From NCBI GenBank assembly GCA_937944295.1, contig CALDZL010000058.1, forward strand, positions 1-38,866: a DNA stretch of 38,866 nucleotides, given 5' to 3'. The position numbers and the translations under genes are program-made. This DNA is from an uncultured Sphingorhabdus sp. GTDB taxonomy: Bacteria > Pseudomonadota > Alphaproteobacteria > Sphingomonadales > Sphingomonadaceae. Below the pieces are notes generated by a model, which saw only the letters and a program-made list of their open reading frames with translations, searched no databases and was not told the DNA's origin. Of this stretch, positions 29,189-30,828 are shown one piece after another; the stretch's first letter is position 1; each line of letters begins with the position of its first letter.

Positions 29189-29581
29189 TATATTTGCGTA
29201 ACAGCAACCCTAAGCTTATAAATTCAATAGATATTCCCATAAAGGAAACAGAATCACAATTAATGACAGGCATGAATCAGCGTTAAACAGTGCATGATTC
29301 ACCATAAAATGTGATTATTTATTAATGATTATTATAACTTTGAGCTATTTTACATCATTTACCTTAAAAAAAAATTGTTGTTAATCAATTGCTTGTATAT
29401 ATTCAACAAAAATTCCTACAAATTTTATCTATACTATGGTCAAAAGGTGTTGTAGCCAAATCTTTCGTCAGCATCATTACACATGATAGTTGGCGGCCAT
29501 GATTTTTAGATTGTACAGGGAAATAAAGCCTGATCGATCGTTACAATGAATGGTGATCGATTAGGAAGGAAAGGATCAAAA
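29189..29581 (+). promoter_or_regulatory. leader and upstream region of the Cys-rich gene
   Basis: No protein gene fits. A sigma-70-like promoter is present as TTGTTG (29375-29380), a 17-base spacer and TATATT (29398-29403), giving a start near 29410 and a leader of about 170 nt. At 29531-29563, TGATCGATC and GATCGATTA are complementary across 15 bases, just before the purine-rich ribosome site (29564-29575). The leader is long enough for a regulatory element, though none was recognised. Confidence 0.45.
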
Positions 29582-29935
29582 ATGAGAAAAACTAAACTTG
29601 CATCTATGCTAGCAGTAGCTGGCGGTCTTGCAATCGCAACAAGCGCTTGTTCATCAGAAACAGCTTCGGACGCAGCTTGTGCTGTTCAATGTGCAGCATG
29701 TGGTGCAGCTTGTTCAGCAGGTTGTGCGGCTTGTGCAGTTGGTTGTGCAGCGGCATGCGGCGCATGTGCAGTTGGTTGTGCAGCAGCTTGTGGCGCATGT
29801 GCAGTTGGCTGTGCAGCAGCTTGTGCAGCTTGCGCAGTATCTTGTGCGGCATGTGGAGCAGCTTGCGGCGCAGCATGTGGTGCAGCTTGCGGCGCGGCGT
29901 GTGCAGCGTGCGGGGCAGCATGTGCAGCTAGCTAA
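29582..29935 (+). CDS. exported Cys/Ala repeat protein with a cysteine stripe, unknown function
   Basis: The 117-residue precursor has a signal peptide (MRKTKLASMLAVAGGLAIATSAC, with ATSAC possibly a lipobox at Cys23). The remaining part contains only Ala, Gly, Cys, Val, Ser and a few others, with 24 Cys in all. The spacing alternates between three and four residues, so Cys recur on one face of an alpha-helix. Three units of the 11-residue form CAVGCAAACGA are near-perfect tandem copies. Eleven residues in three turns gives a straight stripe. Such an arrangement would suit soft-metal binding or thiol redox work, although no His or Met is present. The start at 29582 has a strong AGGAAGGAAAGGA site and the signal peptide. 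I do not recognise a family. Confidence 0.85.
   Translation: MRKTKLASMLAVAGGLAIATSACSSETASDAACAVQCAACGAACSAGCAACAVGCAAACGACAVGCAAACGACAVGCAAACAACAVSCAACGAACGAACGAACGAACAACGAACAAS
29732..29830 (+). repeat. three tandem 33-bp repeats inside the Cys-rich gene
   Basis: Units at 29732-29764, 29765-29797 and 29798-29830 each encode CAVGCAAAC followed by two small residues. They differ at only a few third-codon positions and in the last unit. They are flanked by further C-x-x-C and C-x-x-x-C coding sequence of similar composition. The array could expand or contract by recombination or slippage. Confidence 0.7.
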
Positions 29936-29957
29936 AGCATAGCTATACAATATTAAG

Positions 29958-29989
29958 AAGACGGCACCTTGTGGTGTCGTCTTTTTTTT
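29958..29989 (+). terminator. rho-independent terminator of the Cys-rich gene
   Basis: GACGGCACC (29960-29968) pairs with GGTGTCGTC (29973-29981), with one G-U pair and a four-base loop TTGT. The stem is flanked by A residues and followed by eight T (29982-29989). It lies 22 bases after the stop codon and insulates the gene from the next one. Confidence 0.9.
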
Positions 29990-30153
29990 GCCTACAATAT
30001 TGGGTATACCGCAGTGTGAGCTCCGTGATATTGTTTAAAAATATCAAAATTTACCTGATCAATTATTTATACAAAATAGCGAATAAACCCTGTATTTTTG
30101 CAACAGCTATCACCATAATAGATAATGAACAGATTTAATTTGGAGTAATACGA

Positions 30154-30828
30154 ATGTCTGCAGATAAATGTACAGCACAATTGGCAGCGGCTGAAACTGT
30201 AATTGAAACAATCGTGGCCATGGCACAAGAGGGCAAGCCTCTTATGCAACGTGTATTACCAGAAGATGATATCAAATGGTGGGAACATTATCCAAAATTA
30301 GATGCCCGCAGCAAAAGCTGTAAAGCAAGATGGTATTATCATGTCCATAAACCTGGATCGCGCAGTCCTGATGAACATGGGCATTTTCACCTATTCCTCG
30401 ACAAATCTCAAATAAAAAAAGCATCGCGCACCATTGCTAAACCTGTCCATTATAGAAATAAGAAAAAGGCACGCGTTACCCATTTAATAGCATTATCTAT
30501 AGACAAAAATGGTATCCCACGTGAATGGTTTACGACCAACCGCTGGGTTACCGATGAGTGGATGTATCCTGCCAAAACAATGACCAACCATATGCCTCTC
30601 TATAATGTAAATGACACAGCAGAAGATAAGCTAGTCAATAAATTAATTACTGCAATGGTTCGACTTTACAGCGATGAGATAGAAGAATTATTGCATGAAC
30701 GCGATGCCAAACTTAAAGAAATTGGTGCGGGTAGAGATGCTCCTGAATTATATAATAAAGGCAATGAGGTATTGTCTTCGCGCATGATTGATCTGGATGT
30801 AAAAATAGAATCTCTGGAAGCCGAATGA
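30154..30828 (+). CDS. conserved protein of unknown function, DUF6969-like
   Basis: This 224-residue soluble protein carries a cluster of His, Trp and Tyr: KWWEHYPKLDARS (41-53), RWYYHVHKPG (59-68), DEHGHFHLFL (73-82), then HLIALSIDKNGIPREWFTTNRWVTDEW (110-136). Five closely spaced His could bind a metal. The C-terminal 60 residues are helical and acidic. I think it matches DUF6969, but this is from memory of the pattern. TGGAG precedes the ATG. The gene overlaps dapE by four bases (ATGA), so it is translated together with dapE. Its role is unknown. Confidence 0.75.
   Translation: MSADKCTAQLAAAETVIETIVAMAQEGKPLMQRVLPEDDIKWWEHYPKLDARSKSCKARWYYHVHKPGSRSPDEHGHFHLFLDKSQIKKASRTIAKPVHYRNKKKARVTHLIALSIDKNGIPREWFTTNRWVTDEWMYPAKTMTNHMPLYNVNDTAEDKLVNKLITAMVRLYSDEIEELLHERDAKLKEIGAGRDAPELYNKGNEVLSSRMIDLDVKIESLEAE

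Follow-up and report, generated by a model that had tools for sequence, protein, structure and literature searches.

What is a gene for when it encodes a signal peptide and, behind it, a tail with a cysteine at every third or fourth position, and does its product work alone? The question is raised by a small gene in a contig of an uncultured Sphingorhabdus sp., of which the whole stretch of 38,866 nucleotides, called the window here, was analysed. An earlier note on this DNA had described a Cys-lined helix resembling that of copper storage proteins, and it missed the family to which the peptide belongs, the conserved signal peptide of that family and the downstream DUF6969 gene. The features of the locus are collected in Table 1.

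Table 1. Features of the peptide-DUF6969 locus in window coordinates.
Feature	Position	Strand	Basis
Shine-Dalgarno-like AGGAAGGAAAGG, 7 nt 5' of ATG	29563..29574	+	read directly; identical letters before ATG in L054-L056
Cys/Ala-repeat protein with signal peptide, 117 aa, 24 Cys	29582..29935	+	ORF translation, homologues
Signal peptide/leader MRKTKLASMLAVAGGLAIATSA, residues 1-22, conserved part of the peptide family	29582..29647	+	family alignment, leader statistics
Cys23, candidate site of lipidation (TSAC, a weak lipobox)	29648..29650	+	sequence
Cys-repeat tail, Cys33 to end	29678..29932	+	sequence
Intrinsic terminator, hairpin and T run, between peptide gene and DUF6969	29955..29990	+	folding energy
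DUF6969 (PF22308) protein, 224 aa, near-invariant His cluster	30154..30828	+	Pfam E 3e-61, alignment, model

The cysteine-repeat gene and its helix

The 117 residues include 50 Ala and no His, and the only Met is the start residue. Twenty-three of the Cys fall in residues 33-114, and all 22 successive spacings are 3 (7 times) or 4 (15 times), with a mean of 3.68, as the earlier note had read them. The same note counted three copies of the unit CAVGCAAACGA; two are exact (residues 51 and 62), while the third, at residue 73, has one change (CAVGCAAACAA). The DNA differences among the three copies lie at the third codon position in 3/3, 6/7 and 3/4 cases.

Composition alone is a weak test of such a gene, because 1000 dinucleotide shuffles of its DNA gave a mean of 13.6 Cys with a maximum of 25, and 7.7% of the shuffles were stop-free. 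Conservation is the strong test. Frame disruption in close strains was looked for, and the ORF was found intact, with the gene order kept, in three same-genus genomes (L003, L004 and L005); with homologues in related genomes as well, the gene is real. The tails of these proteins are repetitive and align poorly, as those of a drifting low-complexity ORF without function might, but the frame, the codon pattern of the leader, the gene order and the partner gene are all conserved, and we give this explanation almost no credence.

Among the expression signals claimed for the gene, the ribosome site was read directly (Table 1), and its own terminator is a strong hairpin (29955-29986, -21.2 kcal/mol, z -5.8), which the consensus terminator scanner did not list. 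The consensus scan gave no sigma-70-like site in the DNA ahead of it, so a promoter of its own is unconfirmed. A search upstream of 80 peptide genes for an ECF-type site (GGAAC-N15-18-CGT) gave 0 hits. An element GCCACATTCTTGCCGTGATTCGGGGCGC occurs upstream of peptide genes such as those of L061 and L064, and its 8-mers recur at 18-22 of the 80 genes; it is possibly a regulatory site, or possibly a mark of simple relatedness.

On a helical wheel, each of three segments of the window tail has a Cys resultant of 0.85-0.91 (98-100 degrees); for the whole tail the values are 0.61 at 100 degrees and 0.86 at 98 degrees. The Cys of the window protein can therefore form one face, as had been proposed. 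Structure prediction from the one sequence (AlphaFold2, pLDDT 71, pTM 0.54) returned a two-helix hairpin, residues 24-68 and 72-116; the confidence of this model is modest, and an Ala-rich sequence would tend to give such a hairpin anyway. A Cys-lined helix is plausible in the window protein. As the key feature, however, the stripe is not borne out by most relatives tested. Among the nine tested, the Cys-face resultant is 0.66-0.91 in L054-L056, which are members of the window's Sphingorhabdus-like clade, 0.35-0.39 in L125 and 0.03-0.22 in five others. The helix may be how the lineage of the window does it, but the peptide family is not defined by it.

Exported forms of copper storage proteins exist. 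The resemblance to this class (Csp1/Csp3; compare PMC9484137) consists of many Cys on predicted helices. Unlike the copper storage proteins, the window peptide has no Pfam or PDB sequence match, a low-complexity Ala/Cys composition, no His and no Met beyond the first; its model is a two-helix hairpin at modest confidence only, against the Cys-lined four-helix bundle that marks the class, and most of its tested relatives lack helical spacing. A phmmer search of the PDB chains gave PsaU at E 1.7 as the single match, and no sequence relationship to the solved copper storage proteins. Bacterial metallothioneins are likewise small and Cys-rich, but the window peptide differs from them in its signal peptide, its long regular repeats and its linked partner gene, and no metallothionein family of Pfam or NCBIfam was matched at E 1.

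A peptide family linked to DUF6969

The window peptide matches nothing in Pfam or NCBIfam at E 1, and the earlier note knew of no family with this composition. Nevertheless, it is not an orphan. The peptide or its relatives were found in 9 of 148 close genomes by whole-genome search, and 30 of 397 same-family genomes match the peptide-family alignment, with the own genome included in both counts. What the 30 matches have in common is the signal peptide (K..LASMLAVAGGLA), which agrees with the one read earlier in the window protein, and not the Cys-rich tail. The tails are of different types, namely CAACGAAC, AEGCCAAEGCC, AAGDAAC, GCGAKPC and NPCSAKANPCSAK. At the position of the candidate lipidation site, LSAC occurs in some other members and an AxA-like site in others. 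No family ORF was seen in L052, one of the loci fetched for the same-family matches. Viral contigs gave 269 pattern matches to the peptide, none of which was confirmed.

The ORF next after the peptide gene encodes a DUF6969 protein, which scores 207 bits against PF22308 (Pfam cut-off 27). Clustering of the neighbours at 34 peptide loci yielded one recurrent cluster, with 27 ORFs, one each in 27 of the 34 loci, and relatives of the window DUF6969 are included in it. For the reverse search, genome contigs were scanned with the DUF6969 alignment and the best 80 of 343 relatives were taken, from Sphingorhabdus, Erythrobacter, Sphingopyxis, Sphingobium, Novosphingobium and related or broader taxa. 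At these best 80 of 343, all Sphingomonadales loci, a leader-bearing peptide ORF lies just upstream of DUF6969 in 79; the exception is L102, whose contig begins 2 nt before the DUF6969 match. Both the pairing and the peptide family are well supported. Of 74 other loci, 34 share with the window a terminator-like hairpin and T run between the two genes, in a count made without a shuffled control, and the stems are alike in many Erythrobacter loci. We infer that this intergenic terminator is a device for making more peptide than partner.

The single DUF6969 match of the own genome is the one in the window. On contig 68 of the same genome (L002:1504-3081), a Cys/Ala-repeat paralogue without a DUF6969 neighbour adjoins a YHS-domain protein (E 4.5e-12) that has the same kind of leader and a Cys tail; another YHS-like protein there scores below the YHS cut-off. 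The window peptide itself has no YHS domain, in contrast to the YHS-domain metal proteins.

Leader and tail were compared across 79 Sphingomonadales members (3081 pairs, 18-residue leader). The mean pairwise identity is 0.65 for the leader, 0.55 for DUF6969 and 0.45 for the tail in aligned columns (0.29 with gaps), where the leader-finding pattern demanded GG and a hydrophobic run so that these columns are partly fixed by construction; the conservation of GG in particular is fixed in this way, because the leader counts come from patterns requiring it. The leader DNA diverges by 0.187 at codon positions 1+2 versus 0.618 at position 3. Leader similarity also correlates with DUF6969 similarity (Mantel r 0.52, 0/2000 permutations), a correlation that would arise from shared ancestry alone. 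Signal peptides usually diverge faster than the remainder of an exported protein. The slower change of the leader than of the tail is what would be expected if the leader doubled as a recognition site. A conserved leader, a variable core and a linked partner gene, as expected of a new RiPP class, are all found in the peptide-DUF6969 unit, and the Cys-containing precursor carries what reads, from its sequence and the family alignment, as a Sec signal peptide. The tails vary in spacing yet mostly keep many Cys. In L092 the ORF upstream of DUF6969 has MM pairs where its relatives have CC, with a single Cys in the whole ORF; such an exchange of Cys for Met would fit Cu(I) binding.

In the partner, H63, H65, H77, H79, H110 and N129 are almost invariant (near 100%) across 158 DUF6969 sequences, and E74, H75 and R183 are at 98-99%. 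In the predicted model (pLDDT 93.4, pTM 0.91, from 75 sequences) the conserved His lie on or beside the successive strands 59-64, 74-83 and 108-117, and the alternation of H75, H77 and H79 along their strand suggests one His-lined face. Foldseek with this model gave nothing at E 0.001 against PDB (best 0.53, TM about 0.2) or BFVD (best 0.36), and a profile search of the PDB sequences returned 0 matches. As a structural match is absent, the label "enzyme" for DUF6969 is taken from the conserved residues only. There was no match in phages. Eight long ORFs that looked like DUF6969 fusions were judged by eye to be spurious 5' extensions.

These results bear on whether the peptide needs to be modified at all. 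In an unmodified, thiol-rich metal store the Cys tail would bind Cu(I) directly, and DUF6969 would be a chaperone, an export gate or a metal sensor. The 24 Cys in 117 residues on a predicted helical hairpin, the many Cys mostly kept under variable spacing, the Met-rich tail of L092 and the YHS-domain protein of the same genome, with its like leader and Cys tail, all suit such a store. It leaves unexplained, however, a leader more conserved than the partner and a linked partner with invariant His, and we regard it as doubtful.

DUF6969 outside Sphingomonadales

PF22308 was found in 20 of 398 phylum-sample genomes and 62 of 289 genomes of the window's class; in a second class, 26 of 321 genomes had it. 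From these searches 77 loci outside Sphingomonadales were assembled: 17 from the phylum sample (outside the window's family), 25 new ones from the second class and 35 from the window's class. A Cys-repeat ORF with a signal-like start lies at most 2 kb from DUF6969 in 51 of the 77 loci by rule (300 kb searched), whereas the parts of these loci further from DUF6969, 776 kb in all, hold 10 ORFs of this kind as background. Three of the 51 were judged spurious in a hand check (L165, L231 and L260) and six loci, some with only 3 Cys, were added by eye (L166, L239, L243, L245, L247 and L268), so that about 54 of the 77 have a Cys repeat. For the other loci, about 23, the hand-checked search within 2 kb gave no Cys-repeat ORF, and some of them are near contig ends. 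Similar peptide-DUF6969 pairs therefore recur in many other bacteria. The repeat types here include NPCAAK, NPCNPC, CGAC, GGNPCAPSAR and SPCGL.

Some Cys repeats are joined to haem proteins. A SoxA/TsdA cytochrome c fused to Cys repeats scored above cut-off in 4 of 4 proteins scanned (L159, L161, L164 and L225). For cytochrome P460, one of four scanned Cys-repeat proteins was above cut-off (L281), two were below (L266 and L156) and one was unmatched (L255). The neighbour clusters of the 77 loci, each named by one representative, include FGE-sulfatase-like proteins (14), cytochrome c (14) and Sulf_transp (12); a rhodanese cluster, named by tblastn, covers 15 loci. When the flanks of all 157 loci were searched by tblastn, rhodanese was found in 16, YeeE in 5 and YHS proteins in 13. 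Outside Sphingomonadales, rhodanese (16/77 loci) is a commoner neighbour of DUF6969 than MNIO (3/77).

These neighbours could belong to an envelope sulphur system, in which the Cys repeats would carry or scavenge persulphide or sulphane sulphur together with rhodanese, YeeE-type transport and haem proteins. The rhodanese, YeeE, Sulf_transp, FGE-like and cytochrome c counts and the SoxA/TsdA-type fusions given above are in its favour, and so is the DUF6969 gene on S. meliloti pSymB, which follows YeeE. On the other hand, tblastn at E 1e-6 found neither rhodanese nor YeeE in the flanks of the 80 loci of the window's own order, and haem and YHS proteins would equally suit copper handling. This system is, in our judgement, unlikely.

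Several loci deserve separate description. At L277:6801-7871 and similar sites, an FGE-sulfatase-like protein is encoded on the same strand as DUF6969 and usually just upstream of it (14/77 loci). Enzymes of this type are termed cuproenzymes in PMC12452194. In S. meliloti pSymB (L292, 4441-6606) there is no clear Cys repeat between the YeeE/YedE sulphur transport gene and the DUF6969 gene that comes after it. Two DUF6969 loci on Azospirillum plasmids are surrounded by an annotated Mla operon, a DUF2336 protein and a histidine kinase, with a DoxX protein further off, and no Cys repeat was seen by reading one of them (L291). DctM/TRAP neighbours were taken as ordinary synteny.

MNIO, bufferins and the proposed role of the pair

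The closest known parallel is that of the bufferins and Buf_EGKCG/oxazolins, which are MNIO-modified, Sec-exported copper RiPPs. Bufferins and stand-alone precursor genes are described in PMC12452194. There, Sec export of RiPP precursors is called highly unusual and experimentally shown only for bufferins, as products of MNIO, and preliminary results are mentioned in which the signal peptide of Buf1 belongs to what the enzyme complex recognises. The main text of that paper contains none of the terms YHS, P460 and rhodanese. The window pair shares with these systems a Sec-type signal peptide on a Cys-rich precursor, a linked cytosolic partner gene and repeated short Cys motifs, and in L167 and L228 even the gene neighbourhood: in both, the peptide-DUF6969 pair is directly beside a Buf1-MNIO-DUF2063-DoxX cluster. 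It differs in that the partner is DUF6969 and that the peptide has no DUF2282 domain (neither Pfam nor NCBIfam gave DUF2282 or Buf_6/12Cys at E 1) and no EGKCG repeat.

The own genome carries a separate cluster of the bufferin type on contig 24 (L023:7270-10955), in which a Buf1-type precursor is followed by MNIO and then by genes that we take to be DUF2063, DoxX, a sigma factor and NrsF. This MNIO (PF05114) is the only match in the genome; none adjoins the window peptide. The peptide might be a RiPP of the bufferin-like kind on which an MNIO enzyme encoded elsewhere acts, DUF6969 being an accessory. MNIO is present in 49 of 64 tested genomes with peptide or DUF6969, comprising all 27 of the same family (26 of the 30 peptide-positive genomes and G013) and 22 of 37 elsewhere. 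Within the genus it occurs in 9 of 9 DUF6969 genomes versus 14 of 36 without DUF6969 (Fisher p 0.0015, relatedness uncorrected). This co-occurrence supports a shared stress, and because of it MNIO could be the real modifier in the genus. In addition, 5 of the 157 loci are flanked by an MNIO cluster. However, the flanks of the other 152 gave no MNIO match by tblastn, the window protein lacks the EGKCG motif, and MNIO is absent from 15 of the 37 other DUF6969 genomes, all listed as at least 98% complete and including G558, which has a 28-Cys protein beside its DUF6969. We consider modification by a remote MNIO improbable.

The reading we prefer, tentatively, is that of a bufferin-like, leader-guided Cys protein which DUF6969 modifies or prepares before export and which serves copper or sulphur handling. 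In the conserved two-gene unit the peptide would be the precursor, with its Sec-type signal peptide doubling as a recognition leader and its tail changing fast under one constant property, many closely spaced Cys. DUF6969 has no obvious signal peptide and should remain in the cytosol, where it would bind the leader and use a metal site built from His to act on the tail; the likeliest action is Cys modification of the kind that MNIO enzymes perform on bufferins. The exported product, perhaps a lipoprotein in many clades, would work in the envelope as a high-capacity buffer for soft metal (copper) or sulphur, while the terminator between the genes would hold the peptide abundant and the partner scarce. 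In favour of this reading are the linkage of the two genes within and beyond Sphingomonadales, the conserved leader, the near-invariant His of DUF6969, the bufferin-type neighbourhood in L167 and L228, the MM pairs of L092, the haem fusions and the preliminary results on the Buf1 signal peptide. Counting against it are the lack of a structural match for DUF6969, the roughly 23 loci outside Sphingomonadales where no Cys-repeat ORF was seen near it, the contig 68 paralogue that does without a DUF6969 neighbour, the co-occurrence with MNIO in the genus and, outside Sphingomonadales, the greater frequency of rhodanese than of MNIO as a neighbour.

A wider proposal, which we put forward as a possibility with greater reserve, is that DUF6969 founds a new metalloenzyme family with a fold absent from PDB, reading Sec signal peptides as leaders and modifying, throughout Pseudomonadota, proteins whose Cys repeats stand alone or are fused to cytochrome P460 or SoxA-type cytochrome c. 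Exported Cys proteins that handle copper or sulphur would then have a second route, independent of MNIO. If true, a second partner family, unrelated to MNIO, with exported Cys-repeat proteins would widen the picture of Sec-exported RiPPs, and the pairing would assign a function to the uncharacterised DUF6969 family and account for low-complexity Cys genes outside the curated families searched. The pair may represent a route to proteins that handle metals or sulphur beyond the cell membrane, one that is undescribed as far as one open-access literature library shows. The searches of that library found no paper on DUF6969 and nothing on the pairing.

Finally, at L006:352-1378 and at similar loci among L032-L050, genes for a GH108 lysozyme and a GTA-type 3TM holin precede the peptide-DUF6969 pair. 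The lysozyme and holin clusters hold 14 ORFs each from several genera of the same family (by Pfam scan for the L006 pair only), and these neighbours are perhaps a release route for the peptide.
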